DNA of 8,144 nucleotides from Pseudomonadota bacterium. GTDB lineage: Bacteria; SAR324; NAC60-12. How positions within the stretch are numbered: the stretch's first letter is position 1; every line of letters starts with the position of its first letter. Positions 1 to 8,144 of the stretch are shown here, piece after piece. Both the position numbers and the translations under genes were made by a program. The stretch lies in contig JACNKY010000249.1 of assembly GCA_014381795.1 (NCBI GenBank), positions 1 to 8,144 on the forward strand, given 5' to 3'. The notes beneath the pieces were generated by a model that did no database searches, was not told where the DNA came from, and saw only the letters and a list, made by a program, of their open reading frames with translations.

Positions 1-491
1 CAAAGTCCAACACAATTTTCATTTTTATCAACCAGCTTCGTTCAAAAATTGGTGTGGTTTTTGGAAATCCGGAAACAACCACAGGCGGTAATGCACTCAA
101 ATTTTACTCCAGTGTACGTCTTGATGTTCGACGTGCGAGTCAGATTAAGAGCGGAGACGAAGTAACAGGTCACAGAATGAAAATCAAGATTGCAAAAAAT
201 AAATTGGCGCCACCGTTTCGTATTGCCGAAGTTGATTTAATCTATGGGGTTGGAATATCCAAAATTGGTGTCCTGCTTGATTTAGCCGTGAATGCGGAAA
301 TTGTGCAAAAAAGCGGGACCTGGTTCTCCTACGAAAAAGAGAGGTTAGGTCAGGGGCGAGATAACTCCATCAAGTTTTTGGAAGAAAACCCCGAAATTGC
401 TGAAACCATCAACCTTAAAGTACGCGCTTTGCACAATCTTGATCCTGCGCAGAATAGTCAGCCAGTGGAAGAAACTGCTGATGAGGAATGA
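1..491 (+). CDS. recA: RecA recombinase, C-terminal part (5' end outside window)
   Basis: RecA is the ATP-dependent strand-exchange protein of homologous recombination and the co-protease that triggers the SOS response. The reading frame is open from base 3, so the gene enters from the left edge; the GTG at 54 is an internal valine, not a start. About 162 residues are visible, a little under half of a normal RecA. They begin in the ATPase core with the strand [12 protein letters not shown], which contains the conserved NQ of the allosteric switch glutamine. The L2 DNA-binding loop with [16 protein letters not shown] follows, then the C-terminal domain with [14 protein letters not shown] and [15 protein letters not shown]. 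The protein ends in an acidic tail (EETADEE), typical of RecA. The TGA stop overlaps the ATG of the selU gene (ATGA). The upstream promoter and any LexA box are outside the window. Family assignment is essentially certain. Confidence 0.97.
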
Positions 492-1579
492 CTGATAACG
501 ACTATTTGACAGCTCAGTCAAAGCCGTTTTCTAAAAGAATGGAGGACTTTCTCAAAGGCGGCTTTCCTGCATTATCAGTGGAGGAAGCTCTTACAGAGAG
601 CATGCTTTTGCTGGATGTGCGGACTGCCGAGGAGTTTGCAAAAGGCAGTATTCCCGGTGCCAGGAGTTTTCCGCTTTTTGATGATTTGGAACGTGCGGAA
701 ATTGGTACAATCTACAAACAAGTTGGTCGGGATGCCGCCGTTGTGAAAGGACTGGAGTTTTTTGAACCGAGACTTCAGCAGTTTTTATTAACGCTTTCTG
801 CAATAAAATCTCAGCAACTCGTTGTATATTGTGCCCGTGGCGGGATGAGATCCGCTTCGGTGGTCAGGCTCCTACAGGAAAACGGATTCAGTGTTTCTCA
901 AATGCAAGGAGGTTATAAATATTATCGGCAATTTGTTCTGAGGCAACTTGAAAATCCAGTTCCCCCGCTCATTGTGCTGCATGGAAAGACTGGTGTTGGA
1001 AAGACATTACTCCTAGAAAAACTTCCGGATCATTTGGATCTGGAAGGTCTGGCGCAACACCGCAGTTCCCTGTTTGGCGCTATTCACAAAATTCCCCGGA
1101 CTCAGAAAGATTTTGAAGCGTTGCTGGTTCAAAAATTGAGTGAACTGCCTGAGGATCTTTTTCTTTTTGTTGAAGGCGAAAGCCGAAAAGTTGGACAGGT
1201 TTTTATTCCGCAGACTTTTGCAAATGCGATGAAGAGTGGAAAGCTGGTGCTACTGAGTGCTGAATTGGAAACCAGAATCAGCCGTATAGTTGAAGAGTAT
1301 AATATTTGTGATGCAAAGAGTATTCAGCAAATTGACTCAATTTTGCAATCACTGAAAGTGGCGCTCGGCAAAGTTAAAGTCGAACAATTACGGCTGTGGC
1401 TGAAACAAGGTAAAATTGAAAACATAGTGCACATGCTTTTAGTAGACTACTATGACCCACGTTACCAGCATGCAATGAGCGGCTATGACTTTGCACTGGA
1501 ACTTTCTGCGGAAGACTTGAGTCAGTCCGCCGAGGAACTGATTACTTTTCGTAATCAAATGATTGAGAGCTATTGTTAA
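488..1579 (+). CDS. selU: tRNA 2-selenouridine synthase (rhodanese + P-loop)
   Basis: SelU (MnmH, formerly YbbB) replaces sulfur by selenium in the wobble 2-thiouridine of tRNAs for Lys, Glu and Gln, using selenophosphate and passing through a geranylated intermediate. The 363-residue length matches the E. coli enzyme (364). An N-terminal rhodanese domain spans about residues 25-152, with [10 protein letters not shown], the [10 protein letters not shown] segment and catalytic Cys115 in [15 protein letters not shown]-loop domain follows, with Walker [10 protein letters not shown] at 165-173, the family motif [11 protein letters not shown] at 184-194, VEGESRKVG at 228-236 and YYDPRY at 321-326. 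The start is the ATG overlapping the recA stop. GAGGA directly abuts this ATG, too close for a normal Shine-Dalgarno, so translation is probably coupled to recA. SelD, which supplies selenophosphate, is not in the window. The family call is very secure; co-expression with recA is inference. Confidence 0.95.
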
Positions 1580-1630: not shown

Positions 1631-4315
1631 ATGAATTTTCTTAAAATGAGAAAAATTTTTTCAATAATACTCTTGATTCTGATTATATGTTGTCAGCCAG
1701 TGAGCGGATTTTCAGAAAGTAGTAGCAGCACCCTTGAGGTAAAGACACATTATGGCACATTCCCGCTACCTGTTCCAACTCTTCGTTTACCTGAACTACC
1801 TGAACTACCATTAGTCTCTGTTACTGAGACAGCATATCCTGAACTTCCAGATTGGAATTACCCTCGTTTTATTCCGGATGATCCCAGCTGGCTTGACCGT
1901 TCAGGAAAATTTTACAAAGAAGGCATAGTTCATTTGTTTCGTGGCGACTTGAATGTAGCGCTTAAGAGATTCCAGACAGTTACTGATGACTATCCGGAAA
2001 CACCCTGGTTTACTCCGTCATGGTTTTGGTTGGGGCAAATAATGGCAAAGCAGAAAAAATATGCTCAAGCAGAAAAATTGTTAACATTATTTCTGGATTC
2101 ACTTGAACAGAACAAGAACTCTAATCTTTATGTTGATTTAAGAGATTTCAGTCGTTACAGCTTGGCGTGGCTGGCTGTTAAGCAAAAAAAATATGAAGAA
2201 GCATTGGAGGTAATTAATAAACATGAGGCAGAAATCAGTATTAAAAAAATCCGGATACAACTTCTATATTTGAAATACCTGACTTATGTAAAATTGAAGA
2301 AAAGCGACCAAATATTTTTCTTGCTTGAAAGAATGACTCAGCAATTTAAATATGATTTTGAGCACGTAGTACGCCTCGCGGAATATTATTTTGTGGAAAA
2401 TAGATGGCAGGAACTAGCAGATCTAGTTGCTGATAAAGCTGCTAAGCCAGAGTTTTACAATGACCTTCAAATGGAGCATTTCTTCTGGCTTGGTGCAGTT
2501 GCTGAGATGAGTTTGAAACAGTGGTCTCAAGCAAAAAAAACATTGGAGTCTCTGGAGGAGTTCGGTGTCAGGAATCCTGATCAGCTTGCACGGGCCTGGT
2601 TAAGAATGCATTTAGAAGCCGGACAATATGAGCAGGCTTGGGAAAAATGGCAGGTAATAAATGATGATCTCCTCCGTGAACAATCCCTACGTGAATTAAT
2701 GCACCATGCAGCAAAAAGTGAGAATTATAAGTTTTTGCTCAAGAAACAGCCGGGATTGAAGTCAGTGGCTAAATCATGGGATGCCTGGCAAGCTGAAATG
2801 GAACTGATCTATGCTTATCTCTACTTAAGTATGGGCCATAGAGAAAAGTCAAAACAGTGGCTGCAATGGTCATTTAAACACTCATTGGATACAGCAAATG
2901 AACAGACATCGTTAGTTGTTATTGAGGAAAGTATTTACCTCAGAACTGTGATTAAGCTTCTGGCTGCGGAGTACAGCAAAGCATTTCAGGACTTAAAACT
3001 GCTTCTTGAAGATTATTCCAACTCTGCGCGTCTGTCGGATTACTATTTTTGGTATGGAGTCATGCTGTATGAAATAGCTAAAAGACCCAAAGATGCTATC
3101 ATGGCCATGCGTCAGGTTGATCAACAGGGTGAGCGGGACGATGACCGCTGGTATCTGCTTGGCAAGGTAAATCATGATCAGCAAAAATGGAACCCTGCGA
3201 TTTCTGCTTTTACTAACCTGAAAAAGCTGCATCCCACTTCTGAATTCTTGGAAGAAGGACTTTATTTACAGGCCCAGTCATACTTCGAACAAAAAAAACA
3301 AAATTCAGCTTTAGAAATCTTAAATGAACTTCGCAGCACTTTCGATCCGCTGAAAAAGCCTGTCAGAGAAATTCATTTAAGAGTCCGAATTCTTATTGCG
3401 ATGCAAAGGTATGAGCAAGCTGATGATGTGTTACAGCGCAAAATTGTGCAGTATTCTGACTTCTCACTGATTAAGCTGAGGGTGGAAGTGCTTAAGCATA
3501 TTAAAGATCCCCGGAGAATACTCAGTGTGACGGGAATCGGCCTTGGACTTTCAACCAGTGAAGATCACGGATTTCTCTTCTTTCATCGTGCAAATGCACT
3601 ATATGATACGCAAAAATATGATGAAGCTGTCACCTATTATAATTTAGCCTTAAAAAATCCTCCAGAAGGCAGTGAGAGGGTTATCCGTTACAGAATCCTT
3701 AAAATTCAGTATGAGCTAGCCCGTATTCCCGAAATGTTGAAAGGTGCTGAGAAGTTTCTGCAGCAAAGCAAGGATGATACTTACAGCTTCGAAATTCTGC
3801 ATTTACTCGGAAATTATTTTATGGAGCGGAAACAAAAGGAAAAGGCTGCCCCTTATTTAAATCAACTGGTTGTCAATTATAAAAAATCGGTACGTCAAGA
3901 GGAGCTTGAGCCGGAAAAAAGAGTTGAGCAGATTATACTGATAGGTGAACTTTACAACGAGTTAGCGAAATATGAGATGGCTGAACGTTGGCTGAACCAG
4001 GCACTAAAATCAATGGAAACAGTACAGGATGGCCGAAAGAAATGGCAGCTGCATATCCTCAGGGAAAAAGGTCTGTCACTTTTTGAGCAGGATAAACACT
4101 CACAGGCGCTCGCTGCAAATCTGAAAGTATTATATCTGGACCGTGGTTTGTCTGAACAAAAAAGCTATGCTCTTAATTTGAGGATTGCCTCAAGTTATGC
4201 TCAGCTTAAACGCAGCAATGATGCGAGGGCGATTTACCGTAAAATGTTAAAAAAATTTAAAAGCGCAGAACTTCAAAAGGAAGTTGAAAAACTACTGAAC
4301 AACTTGACTCAGTAA
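1631..4315 (+). CDS. Large exported TPR-repeat protein of unknown function
   Basis: The 894-residue product begins with a Sec-type signal peptide: basic MRKIF at 6-10, hydrophobic core at about 10-20, and likely cleavage after VSG (residue 26). Cysteines 20-21 do not sit in a normal lipobox, because the preceding residue is not Gly/Ala/Ser, so a lipoprotein is possible but unlikely. Residues 44-75 are proline-rich with repeated PEL units (LPELPELP, then YPELPD), suggesting an extended linker. From about residue 93 to the end it is nearly all helical TPR-like repeats. The clearest are near 93-121, 130-158, 175-200, 505-535, 541-571, 646-676, 767-795 and 846-876, with typical G/A-x-x-Y...A...F/L patterns. 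No catalytic domain or other membrane segment is seen. The likely location is periplasm or outer-membrane face, acting as a protein-assembly scaffold (inference). Neither start (1631, or 1646 at Met6) has a Shine-Dalgarno. I do not recognise a specific family. Confidence 0.88.
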   Translation: MNFLKMRKIFSIILLILIICCQPVSGFSESSSSTLEVKTHYGTFPLPVPTLRLPELPELPLVSVTETAYPELPDWNYPRFIPDDPSWLDRSGKFYKEGIVHLFRGDLNVALKRFQTVTDDYPETPWFTPSWFWLGQIMAKQKKYAQAEKLLTLFLDSLEQNKNSNLYVDLRDFSRYSLAWLAVKQKKYEEALEVINKHEAEISIKKIRIQLLYLKYLTYVKLKKSDQIFFLLERMTQQFKYDFEHVVRLAEYYFVENRWQELADLVADKAAKPEFYNDLQMEHFFWLGAVAEMSLKQWSQAKKTLESLEEFGVRNPDQLARAWLRMHLEAGQYEQAWEKWQVINDDLLREQSLRELMHHAAKSENYKFLLKKQPGLKSVAKSWDAWQAEMELIYAYLYLSMGHREKSKQWLQWSFKHSLDTANEQTSLVVIEESIYLRTVIKLLAAEYSKAFQDLKLLLEDYSNSARLSDYYFWYGVMLYEIAKRPKDAIMAMRQVDQQGERDDDRWYLLGKVNHDQQKWNPAISAFTNLKKLHPTSEFLEEGLYLQAQSYFEQKKQNSALEILNELRSTFDPLKKPVREIHLRVRILIAMQRYEQADDVLQRKIVQYSDFSLIKLRVEVLKHIKDPRRILSVTGIGLGLSTSEDHGFLFFHRANALYDTQKYDEAVTYYNLALKNPPEGSERVIRYRILKIQYELARIPEMLKGAEKFLQQSKDDTYSFEILHLLGNYFMERKQKEKAAPYLNQLVVNYKKSVRQEELEPEKRVEQIILIGELYNELAKYEMAERWLNQALKSMETVQDGRKKWQLHILREKGLSLFEQDKHSQALAANLKVLYLDRGLSEQKSYALNLRIASSYAQLKRSNDARAIYRKMLKKFKSAELQKEVEKLLNNLTQ

Positions 4316-4512: not shown

Positions 4513-4528
4513 TGTTCCACGTGAAACA
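4513..4528. promoter_or_regulatory. parS site: ParB (Spo0J)-binding centromere sequence
   Basis: TGTTCCACGTGAAACA fits the widely conserved chromosomal parS consensus TGTTNCACGTGAAACA at every specified base. It is a near-perfect 16-bp palindrome around CACGTG; the only broken pair is C4517 against A4524. ParB binds such sites as a dimer, spreads as a CTP-dependent clamp and loads SMC, with ParA segregating the origin region. Most known chromosomal parS sites cluster near the replication origin, so this suggests an origin-proximal locus (inference). The site ends eight bases before the cmk ATG, placing it in the cmk 5' leader. Confidence 0.85.
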
Positions 4529-4536
4529 TAAATATT

Positions 4537-5235
4537 ATGGGTTTTAAAATCATTGCCATTGACGGTCCCACCGGTGTTGGGAAAAGTACAATAGCCCGTC
4601 AACTGGCCGCTAAACTGGATTGTTTGTATGTAGACACCGGAGCAATGTTCCGTTGTCTTGCTTGGAGCTGGGCCGCGCATGGTTGTCAGGAAAGTGACGA
4701 ATCTCTGGAAAAGCTGGGTGATCAAACACGAATAGTTTTTGAACATGAGAAAGTAATTTGCGATGATACAGATGTAACTCAGGAAATCCGCACAGAACGG
4801 ATTTCGGCACAGGCTTCAAAAATCAGCCGCTTTCCCTTGATCCGGGAAGTGATGAAAAAACAGCAGCGGAGTCTGGTTGAAGAAGTGCGAAAATCTTCAA
4901 GTTACAGGGGCGCGGTTTTGGAAGGCAGGGATATTGGCACAGTCGTTTTTCCTGCAGCGGAATTCAAATTTTACGTAGATGCTTCTCCGGAGATTCGCGC
5001 TAAACGCAGGTTGCTGCAATTGCAGGAACGTGGTGAAGGGGGAAATTATGAGGAAATATTATCCGCTCTCCGAAAACGTGATTTTCAGGATCAAAACCGA
5101 AAAATGGCACCACTGAAACCTGCAGACGACGCGATTATTGTCGATACAGGAAAGCTGTGTGCAGACGAGGTTTTGAAACATTTGCTCAACCGTGTGCTAA
5201 ATGAAAAAGAAGTCAGCCAGTCCGGAGTTCAATGA
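4537..5235 (+). CDS. cmk: Cytidylate (CMP/dCMP) kinase
   Basis: Cmk phosphorylates CMP and dCMP with ATP to give CDP and dCDP, feeding nucleotide, phospholipid and CMP-sugar pools in the cytoplasm. The 232-residue length is normal for the bacterial family. The N-terminus carries the P-loop IDGPTGVGKST (residues 8-18), followed by YVDTGAMFR (31-39; the family usually has YLDTGAMYR). The CMP-binding motif EGRDIGTVVFP lies at 129-139, and the lid and C-terminal segment RKRDFQDQNRKMAPLKPADDA at 179-199. Catalytic and substrate-binding motifs therefore look intact. The ATG at 4537 is chosen because the P-loop follows it at the usual distance. No Shine-Dalgarno precedes it; a parS site occupies that leader instead. 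The common aroA and rpsA neighbours are absent here. The next gene follows after 37 bases, suggesting co-transcription. Confidence 0.95.
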   Translation: MGFKIIAIDGPTGVGKSTIARQLAAKLDCLYVDTGAMFRCLAWSWAAHGCQESDESLEKLGDQTRIVFEHEKVICDDTDVTQEIRTERISAQASKISRFPLIREVMKKQQRSLVEEVRKSSSYRGAVLEGRDIGTVVFPAAEFKFYVDASPEIRAKRRLLQLQERGEGGNYEEILSALRKRDFQDQNRKMAPLKPADDAIIVDTGKLCADEVLKHLLNRVLNEKEVSQSGVQ

Positions 5236-5272: not shown

Positions 5273-6463
5273 ATGAAAGCAGTTATTCTCGCGGCTAATC
5301 GCAGTACCCGATTGAGTCCTTTTATTGAAACCCGCTGTAAACCGATGATTCGCATTGCAGGGCAATATATCCTCGAAAATACGATTTGTTACCTCAAGGA
5401 AGCAGGGATTCACGATATAGTACTGGTCGTTAATCATCAGCAGGAAATGATCCGTCAGTATTTCGGCAGTGGACAAACGCTTGGTGTGAACCTTGAGTAT
5501 GTCGTTCAAGATGAACTAAAGGGTATTGGCCACGCACTGAGCCTTTGCCGCTCGTCTCTAGAAAAGAAGCCCTTTTTGCTGGTTTATGGTGATGTAATGA
5601 CGGACAACAACCCATTTTTATCTATACTTCAGACTTACTCTGAAACTGACAGGGAGGTTGCTTTGATTGCGCTGCCTGAGTCTTCAAAAGAATTTGGTAA
5701 TGTCTATCTGGATCACGAAATGAAAATCAGCCGACTGGTTGAAAAACCCCAGGCAAATCAGGCGAATTATGTCTTTGCGGGAATGTTTGTTTTGTTTCCG
5801 AAAATTTTTGAACTATTGGCTGAGAATCAGCATGATATTTCCCGTTGCTATGAGCAAATGATAGCAAGCAGTGGACTTCAGGCATGTTTGTGGGAACAAG
5901 GCTGGATTGATATGATACATCCTTGGCACATTTTGGATGCAAACAGGATGTTGATGAGTTCCTGGAAAACTGCTGAGATAGATTCTACGGTTAAACTTTT
6001 GGGACACGTGCATCTGGAAGGAGCGGTACGTATAGGACCGAATGTCACAATTGAATCCGGAACTGTGCTCAAGGGGCCCTGTTACATAGGTGCCAATTCA
6101 TACGTAGGAAATAATTCACTCATTCGTAATTACAGTGCGATTGGCCCTGATTCGATAGTAGGTTACGGATCTGAGTTGAAAAACTGCGTACTCTTTGGAA
6201 ACAACGATGTCGGCCGCCTTTCTTTTGTTGGGGACAGTGTGTTGGGAGAAAATGTAAAATCAGGTTCAGGACTGACGACAGTTAATCATACTGTAGATTA
6301 TAGTCGGATTAGCTGCAGTTCCAACTCAGATACGGTAGAAACTGGTTTGACGAAGCTGGGGGCATTTATAGGTGACAGCGTGTCCATTGGAGCCCGTCAT
6401 ACTCTCGGCCCAGGCAGCATTGTGGAATCCGGAAAAATCATCGCGGATTGTATTACACTTTAA
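5273..6463 (+). CDS. GlmU-like sugar-1-phosphate nucleotidyltransferase with left-handed beta-helix domain
   Basis: The 396-residue protein has an N-terminal nucleotidyltransferase domain (about 1-230) and a C-terminal hexapeptide-repeat beta-helix (about 234-390), the layout of archaeal-type bifunctional GlmU proteins. Visible features are the signature region at 6-25, QDELKGIGHAL (79-89), metal-binding Asp107 in VYGDVMTD, VEKP (156-159), FAGMFVLFPKIF (168-179) and WIDMIHPWHILDAN (211-224). In the helix domain, VGDSVLGENVKSGSGLTTVN (319-338) parallels the GlmU acetyl-CoA site, including the Asn of TxxN, and KLGAFIGD (361-368) is typical of the archaeal group. The signature reads LAANRSTRL instead of LAAGxGTRL, so two glycines are replaced. 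A clear Shine-Dalgarno, AAGGTGA (5262-5268), supports the ATG at 5273. glmS follows, so UDP-GlcNAc synthesis is the likely pathway, but the sugar and nucleotide are not proven. Other activated sugars are possible. Confidence 0.85.
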   Translation: MKAVILAANRSTRLSPFIETRCKPMIRIAGQYILENTICYLKEAGIHDIVLVVNHQQEMIRQYFGSGQTLGVNLEYVVQDELKGIGHALSLCRSSLEKKPFLLVYGDVMTDNNPFLSILQTYSETDREVALIALPESSKEFGNVYLDHEMKISRLVEKPQANQANYVFAGMFVLFPKIFELLAENQHDISRCYEQMIASSGLQACLWEQGWIDMIHPWHILDANRMLMSSWKTAEIDSTVKLLGHVHLEGAVRIGPNVTIESGTVLKGPCYIGANSYVGNNSLIRNYSAIGPDSIVGYGSELKNCVLFGNNDVGRLSFVGDSVLGENVKSGSGLTTVNHTVDYSRISCSSNSDTVETGLTKLGAFIGDSVSIGARHTLGPGSIVESGKIIADCITL

Positions 6464-6502: not shown

Positions 6503-8144
6503 ATGTGTGGTATCAGTGGCATAGTCCATTCAGAAAATATAGGCAGAAATCTATTTAATTCAATCCGCAATTTGGAATATCGTGGATATGATTCCTGCGG
6601 AATGGCGATGCTGAATGAGGGCGAACTTGATTTACGAAAAAATATTGGAGGAATAGATGAAGTCAACGCCTTGGAAAATTTGGACAAAATGCAGGGCAGT
6701 ATCGGAATTGCTCATACGCGTTGGGCAACTCACGGAGGAGTAACCAAGGAAAACTCACACCCTCATCTTTCTTACAAGCAAGAATTTGTGATTGTACACA
6801 ACGGTATTATTTCAAATTACCAGGAATTGCGTGAACGTTTGATTAGTCAAGATGTTGTTTTTGAGTCATTGACTGATACAGAAGTTTTCGTCAACTTGTT
6901 GGAGGAATCATATGCGGAGCTTAAGGATTTAGAAAGAGCTTTCTTAGCCGCCTTGCAGCAAATAGAAGGTTCATACTCTATTGTGATGCTTTCCACGCAT
7001 GACCCGGAACATCTGTACTGCGTAAAAAAAGAATCTCCATTGTTGTTGGGACTAGGCGAAGGATGTAATTATGTTGGCTCAGATCTCAATGCTTTTTTGG
7101 AGTATACAAGGCAGGCGATTGTTCTGGATGATGGAGAGTATGTCGTCTTAGGTCGTGATGATTACCAAATCCGTAATGTGCAAACCGGTAAAATTGTTGA
7201 AAAAGTGGTTATGCACATTGACTGGGACGTGGAAACTAGCAAAAAAGGAGGGTATTCTCATTACATGCTCAAGGAGATTTTTGATGAACCGCAGACAGTA
7301 CGGCAGGCATTGAAAATTCCAAGGGAACAAATTTCCGGGTTGGCCGAGATGTTTACAGAAGCTTCACGTGGCTACCTGATGGGAGTTGGGACGACTTTCT
7401 ATGTGGCAAATATCAGTCAATATTTTTTTTCCAATCTGGCAGATCGATATTATCCAGCCCTCAGTTCAGACGAGTTTTCGGTAGTTACAGTTGAGTCCGG
7501 GGATCTAGTGCTGGCACTTTCTCAATCAGGAGAGACCTATGATACAAAAACCGCCTTGGGATATGCAAAAACATCCGGAGCGCAAACTGCGGCGGTTGTA
7601 AATGTGATGGGCTCGGCTATCAGTATGATGGTTGATCAAGTGATTATGCAGGGTTCAGGACCGGAAATATGTGTTGTTTCTACTAAAGCGGCCCTCGCGC
7701 AAACTTTCATTATGCTGCGTGTCGCTTTGGAGCTTGGTCTGATGCGTGAGTTTCTTTCACAGGATGTTTATAAAAAACACCAGCAGGATTTGGAGTTATT
7801 TCCGGAAATGATTCAACAGATTCTCAACGAACAATCCGGATTCGTGCGCAACATAGCACGCTCTACTAGTCATGTGGAACATTGGTTATTTCTCGGCTGC
7901 GGTGTTTATTATCCTGTTGCCATGGAATCTGCGCTGAAAATGAAAGAGGTTACTTATAAACATGCGGAAGGAATGCCGGCAGGATTCCTTAAACACGGAA
8001 CACTGTCTATGGTAGAACCAACTCTACACTCCTTGTTTTTTGTGCCACTGCTGGAACAAAAGGTTCTACACGACCGTACACTAATTGCGATGGAGCAAGT
8101 AAAAACTCGGGGAGGAACAGTGATTGGAATCATGTTTCAGGGGG
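6503..8144 (+). CDS. glmS: Glucosamine-6-phosphate synthase, isomerizing (3' end outside window)
   Basis: GlmS converts fructose-6-phosphate and glutamine to glucosamine-6-phosphate and glutamate, the first step to UDP-GlcNAc. The frame is open from ATG 6503 to the right edge, giving 547 codons; a full enzyme has about 600-610. The glutaminase domain starts with nucleophile Cys2 (MCGISGIV), then LEYRGYDSCG (24-33), GIAHTRWATHG (68-78), HNGIISNY (99-106) and TDTE (124-127). HYMLKEIF at 253-260 marks the hinge. SIS domain 1 has GVGTTFY (294-300), SQSGETYDT (340-348) and STKAALAQ (393-400). SIS domain 2 has ALKMKE with catalytic Glu482 (E. coli Glu488), HAEGMPAG and LKHG with His498 (E. coli His504). 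The invariant Cys removes any doubt about the start; a weak AAGG lies eight bases upstream. Variant positions are Thr298, Met375 and Phe495. It follows the GlmU-like gene after 39 bases, probably in one operon. Confidence 0.95.
   Translation, partial: MCGISGIVHSENIGRNLFNSIRNLEYRGYDSCGMAMLNEGELDLRKNIGGIDEVNALENLDKMQGSIGIAHTRWATHGGVTKENSHPHLSYKQEFVIVHNGIISNYQELRERLISQDVVFESLTDTEVFVNLLEESYAELKDLERAFLAALQQIEGSYSIVMLSTHDPEHLYCVKKESPLLLGLGEGCNYVGSDLNAFLEYTRQAIVLDDGEYVVLGRDDYQIRNVQTGKIVEKVVMHIDWDVETSKKGGYSHYMLKEIFDEPQTVRQALKIPREQISGLAEMFTEASRGYLMGVGTTFYVANISQYFFSNLADRYYPALSSDEFSVVTVESGDLVLALSQSGETYDTKTALGYAKTSGAQTAAVVNVMGSAISMMVDQVIMQGSGPEICVVSTKAALAQTFIMLRVALELGLMREFLSQDVYKKHQQDLELFPEMIQQILNEQSGFVRNIARSTSHVEHWLFLGCGVYYPVAMESALKMKEVTYKHAEGMPAGFLKHGTLSMVEPTLHSLFFVPLLEQKVLHDRTLIAMEQVKTRGGTVIGIMFQG

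Follow-up and report, generated by a model that had tools for sequence, protein, structure and literature searches.

The window, by which we mean the whole 8,144-nucleotide stretch analysed, carries the 3′ part of recA, mnmH, a gene for a TPR-repeat protein, a predicted parS site, cmk, a GlmU-like gene and the 5′ part of glmS, in that order and all on the forward strand (Table 1). The predicted parS lies between the TPR gene and cmk, upstream of the latter as the earlier note had placed it; cmk starts at 4537, 8 bp past the site. No terminator-like site was found in the cmk leader, and the three promoter-like matches there, where 1.3 were expected, were uninformative.

Table 1. Features of the 8,144-nucleotide window and the basis on which each was assigned
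Feature	Position	Strand	Basis
recA, 3′ part, frame open from window start	3..491	+	PF00154 and PF21096 on 54-491
mnmH, tRNA 2-selenouridine synthase	488..1579	+	NF008750 355.1 bits, cut-off 241
TPR-repeat protein, 894 aa, upstream of parS	1631..4315	+	Pfam TPR; weak NCBIfam YbgF/BamD-type matches below cut-off
Predicted parS, TGTTCCACGTGAAACA	4513..4528	+	Exact consensus, single exact copy in assembly, kept in relatives
Spacer from parS to cmk start codon, 8 bp	4529..4536	+	Genus alignment
cmk, (d)CMP kinase, 232 aa	4537..5235	+	TIGR00017 219.6 bits, cut-off 135.55; PF02224
GlmU-like sugar-1-phosphate nucleotidylyltransferase/acetyltransferase	5273..6463	+	TIGR03992 291.0 bits, just under cut-off 292.1
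glmS, 5′ part, leaves window	6503..8144	+	MCGISG start by eye; relatives' gene here matches GlmS-like query of G032

The 16-bp motif in the window and the assembly

A pattern search of the window showed that the motif matches TGTTNCACGTGAAACA with 0 mismatches, which bears out the earlier description of a near-palindrome fitting the consensus; the symmetry is imperfect, in that C at position 5 is unpaired with A at position 12. According to the earlier note, this exact sequence occurs in B. subtilis spo0J. When up to 3 mismatches to the consensus were allowed, the sole further match in the window was the same site on the opposite strand, with 1 mismatch. Shuffles of the window, searched with the same 3 mismatches, gave a mean of 0.23 matches, and 12 of 200 contained at least two.

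The organism's own assembly (2,229,927 bases, or 2.23 Mb, in 406 contigs; 75.8% complete) holds a single exact copy of the consensus, the site at 4513-4528, and at this completeness further parS sites may have been missed. From the composition of the window, 0.0056 exact matches would be expected per assembly and 0.00002 per window, in agreement with the earlier claim that a chance match in 8 kb is very unlikely. A reversed-pattern control had no exact match in the own assembly and one, in G010, over 58 genomes. At up to 2 mismatches the own genome gave 7 forward and 7 reverse matches and the reversed-pattern control 4 and 1, which leaves the exact match as the informative one. The second-best site in the genome (1 mismatch; C45:5937-5952) falls within a gene that we read as rpoB and is explained by its codons for VARDT.

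Conservation of the site and its link to cmk

The exact site is present in 34 of the 41 genomes of the window's order and in 47 of the 58 genomes overall; the seven order genomes without it are G002, G003, G009, G022, G026, G035 and G037. Among same-class genomes outside the order, 10 of 11 have the site, one copy each, the remaining one being G049. An even spread of copies, which the earlier note had proposed looking for, was not seen: this assembly, though incomplete, shows one exact copy, and 28 of the 34 site-bearing order genomes likewise show exactly one. Five genomes of the genus g2 (G017, G024, G027, G028 and G030) carry two sites 45 bp apart, and the sixth, G029, carries one exact site with an adjoining one-mismatch copy. 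G023 has a second exact parS, TGTTGCACGTGAAACA, at C117:5264-5279 (L108:5264), on a 7.3-kb contig whose open reading frames look phage-like by eye; it is perhaps the parS of a mobile element.

We detected cmk in 37 of the 41 order genomes (not in G002, G009, G026 or G035), and dropping G003, whose cmk leader reads N, leaves 36 that can be resolved. In 30 of these the site stands less than 300 bp upstream of cmk, as an exact match in 28 and with one mismatch in two. The latter, G022 and G037, carry TGTTTCACGTGAAACG, and the Myxococcus xanthus parS consensus likewise ends in G (PMC7022226; PMC3899335). The six exceptions to the linkage are all six g2 genomes, a single genus with parS elsewhere. 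Within the window's own genus the gap from site to ATG is 6-8 bp in all 14 resolved genomes of 17 (8 bp in twelve, 7 bp in one, 6 bp in one), and position 5 (T or C) is the sole variable position of the site. Mean pairwise identity among these 14 genomes is 0.973 over the 16 site columns versus 0.372 over 60 upstream columns, the latter being a low estimate where indels occur because the columns were compared ungapped. In family f2 the spacing between site and cmk runs from 3 to 257 bp.

As far as contigs reach, recA-mnmH-TPR-parS-cmk-nucleotidyltransferase-glmS forms one block across the family, and g2 has this block minus the site. In G017 and G024, the g2 genomes with cmk and parS on one contig, the parS pair lies about 17 kb from cmk and stands before genes whose names, read from sequence, are an Rrf2-like regulator and iscS/iscU-like genes. 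The loss of the site at cmk in g2, together with the pair near the Rrf2-like/isc-like cluster, is a recent centromere move. The pairs are located on C143 in G017 (L100:1018, 1063) and on C149 in G024 (L101:5315, 5360).

In four genomes of family f3 the lone parS adjoins miaA and not cmk (L103 in G041, L104 in G043, L105 in G046 and L107 in G042), and in three of the four a gene of about 970 aa stands on its other side, with weak TPR-type matches in G042. This arrangement resembles the window layout with a different gene pair; in G041, parS and the initial codons of the longest miaA open reading frame overlap. The window TPR protein and the f3 protein of about 970 aa gave no cross-match at 1e-8 and so are not called homologous. 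In G044 (family f4) parS adjoins neither cmk nor miaA. Given that g2 has cmk without the site and that f3 and f4 have parS away from cmk, neither cmk nor parS requires the other. Among the matches listed for relatives at up to 45% identity, 80 cmk loci had no site within one mismatch of TGTTTCACGTGAAACA.

A candidate explanation of the leader was rejected, namely that at cmk parS takes the place of a ribosome-binding site and g2, without parS there, has one (GGAAGGG). In G007, SD-like cores were found for 15 of 76 ATG-started open reading frames versus 98 of 1000 control ATGs; the absence of such a core at cmk is thus not special, and the Shine-Dalgarno argument was dropped.

Distance from the origin marker

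In the own genome dnaN lies on C165, and the contig carrying parS is the 8,144 bases of the window. We used dnaN-recF-gyrB as the origin marker because in family f1 dnaA and dnaN are on different contigs. Twelve relatives carry dnaN and parS on a single contig; these are the only genomes that give a distance, a sample in which short contigs bias toward short values, and the two lie 24-36 kb apart in 11 of them and about 7 kb apart in one. From the dnaN start, parS is 24.2, 26.2, 30.5, 34.2 and 35.1 kb away in five genomes of the window's genus, 29.5, 30.4, 30.6 and 36.2 kb in four f3 genomes, 28.1 kb in G021, 32.3 kb in G033 (f2) and 6.9 kb, to a one-mismatch site, in G022. Long contigs agree, with 30.5 kb in G005 (863 kb) and 32.3 kb in G033 (982 kb). 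Relative to dnaN, the site lies toward gyrB in all of the 12 except G022, where it is on the opposite side. The G019 contig runs 29.6 kb beyond parS in the direction of recA without a match to dnaN, recF, gyrB or der, so the dnaN-parS distance of this genome is larger.

Over the stretches read, cumulative GC skew reaches its minimum at dnaN or no more than a few kb from it in seven of the relatives profiled (G022, G021, G007, G033, G042, G014 and G016), which bears on the comparison with the skew origin suggested earlier; these minima coincide with changes in gene orientation. Long-range skew on C3 of G005 is weak and noisy, and 18 stretches gave no clean switch; it is weak too in G019, and in G018, G020 and G024 the minimum falls at or near the end of the stretch read. 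Exact DnaA boxes near the skew switches were few and uninformative. The earlier inference that the recA-to-glmS segment is origin-proximal thus holds in 12 of 12 measurable relatives, while the own contig of 8,144 bases is too short to show it. P. aeruginosa tolerates parS within about 650 kb around oriC (PMC5098823), which places the dnaN-parS distances of the relatives within a working range.

We also observed that dnaA and dnaN are on separate contigs in the 13 f1 genomes with both genes, though several of the dnaN contigs extend well beyond dnaN, and that they are neighbours in G032, G033, G041, G042, G043 and G046. It seems that dnaA has left the origin in family f1. G010 has two full-length DnaA matches, at C69:2293-3600 (499.7 bits) and C47:9039-10421 (312.4 bits), possibly through contamination of that assembly.

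Partition proteins and the reading of the site

A ParB homologue, the presence of which the earlier note had set down as a check, is encoded on C379 of the own genome (TIGR00180, 190.3 bits; cut-off 58.45); a second, weak ParB match on C275 falls below the cut-off of that model. The C379 protein has R-Q-L-G at the specificity positions and GERRWRA, of the GERRxR type, as its CTP patch. The R and G of these positions are absolutely conserved in ParBs, and the Noc specificity residues are Q-K-K-R (PMC7383237). Among the 25 ParBs we examined, R and G were found in 21 by script and in 3 more by eye, with that of G033 unparsed. The closest solved structures to the C379 protein are Noc, Spo0J and ParB chains, of which Noc is the best PDB chain, and its best NCBIfam model is also Noc, at 233.7 bits under a cut-off of 315.

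Next to parB stand a tlyA-family gene and one encoding a hydrophobic protein, and no parA; parA adjoins parB in other families of the class (for example G041-G044 and G046). ParA-type (AAA_31) matches in the own genome lie on C403, C66 and C233, and that on C403 is nearest to Soj (PDB 1wcv, 3.4e-37). The ParA-like protein at C66:507-1277 of the own genome (G000; L258) has KGGQAKTT as its P-loop in place of KGGVGKTT, shares 30% identity with the ParA-like protein next to the f2 parS, and is possibly an altered ATPase. All nine cmk-bearing genomes of the sister family f2 have a Soj-like gene that is transcribed away from cmk, the site lying between the two (with one mismatch in G037); the product of the G032 gene matches PDB 1wcv at 1.1e-20. 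As judged from its predicted product, this neighbour is independent support for a role in partition.

Together these data very probably identify 4513-4528 as the single parS of the chromosome, a predicted ParB loading site that marks the origin region for segregation. This reading follows from the exact and single motif, the parS-type ParB gene, the conservation of the 16 bp relative to their flanks and the distance from dnaN in relatives. The chromosomal parS first suggested for this DNA is thereby supported by a ParB in the genome, by conservation in the order and by an origin-near position in relatives. By analogy, a ParB dimer would bind parS, take up CTP and close as a CTP-bound clamp, which would slide into the neighbouring recA-glmS DNA; the ParB patch would then be acted on by a ParA from another locus, possibly together with SMC, so that the replicated origins separate. 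Here we follow the ParABS model of ParB binding, CTP clamp, sliding and ParA-driven separation (PMC7053999; PMC7022226).

The consensus TGTTNCACGTGAAACA is shared with B. subtilis and C. glutamicum (PMC7022226), and like theirs the ParB here has the conserved R and G and the site is origin-proximal in the window's relatives. Unlike these species, which have ten parS each (PMC7022226), the own genome has one exact site, and its parB is not beside parA. Thermus thermophilus likewise has a single chromosomal parS (1/1) in the origin domain, but its consensus differs, TGTTTCCCGTGAAACA; the part of the review consulted states no cmk link for it (PMC7022226). An orphan parB without adjacent parA is also found in S. 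pneumoniae, which has four parS and no parA, whereas the own genome has Soj-like genes elsewhere (PMC7022226). The P. aeruginosa sites parS3 and parS4 resemble the cmk site in being intergenic, just upstream of PA0011 and PA0013, and near oriC (PMC7022226).

Could the site double as an operator, at which ParB loaded 8 bp short of the cmk start codon represses the gene and couples (d)CMP kinase supply to its CTP-dependent clamp? The 6-8 bp spacing throughout the resolved genomes of the genus and the linkage in 30 of 36 order genomes would fit such a role, as would the CTP use of ParB (PMC7053999) and the repression of PA0011 and PA0013 by P. aeruginosa ParB from parS3 and parS4, which has been shown there (PMC7022226). 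We nevertheless consider it unlikely, as all six g2 genomes keep cmk without a site there, four f3 genomes have parS beside miaA, and the f2 spacing is variable. CTP supply, moreover, runs mostly via CTP synthase and not Cmk. In B. subtilis the genes adjoining parS are unchanged on Spo0J loss (PMC7022226). That a lone centromere acts as a CTP-linked switch that damps cmk, and so wires segregation to pyrimidine-nucleotide supply across the order, is a doubtful proposition likewise.

The near-palindrome, standing in a 5′ leader so close to the start codon in the genus, might instead be an RNA hairpin controlling cmk translation; this is very improbable, given that 4 of the 14 genus sites, the window's included, have C at position 5 with no compensating change at 12, which breaks a stem pair, that the same sequence is located away from cmk in g2 and f3, and that scans of the window for Rfam families, like those for tRNAs, gave no match. 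A comparably slim chance attaches to the C379 protein being Noc and the site serving nucleoid occlusion. Noc is paralogous to this ParB and is its best match in both NCBIfam and PDB, but the specificity positions differ from those of Noc, the DNA fits the parS consensus, and the site is single and near the origin. Noc sites, in contrast, are numerous and dispersed over the chromosome. To a chance match, or one forced by coding sequence, we give next to no credence: codons do explain the rpoB-like site, so near-matches can arise in this way, but the present site precedes cmk outside the TPR gene, is expected far less than once per assembly and is conserved while its flanks are not.

Returning to the reading as parS, its placement in the cmk leader was probably inherited from the ancestor of the two families; descent is the simplest account, because the recA-to-glmS block is common across the family, and ParB, if it affects cmk at all, would do so as a side effect of its segregation role. 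The unusual traits of the predicted site are its single copy and its fixed place in a CMP-kinase leader. An origin-near parS and a one-parS chromosome, that of T. thermophilus, were already known; what appears to be new is that two families share the placement at cmk. The literature searched, which comprised titles and abstract openings and lay mostly outside subscription journals, gave no report of a parS at this gene.

Most studied species have several parS sites (PMC7022226), which hampers isolating the role of any one, whereas most of the order genomes sampled show one exact site at one gene. The class keeps a site about 30 kb from dnaN even with a different neighbour, cmk or miaA, and so offers a natural test of whether selection acts on how far parS lies from the origin and not on a given locus. 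With parS in the cmk leader, a link between ParB, which is a CTPase, and a nucleotide kinase is also open to direct test, and an effect of ParB on cmk, if real, would be notable because ParB uses CTP.
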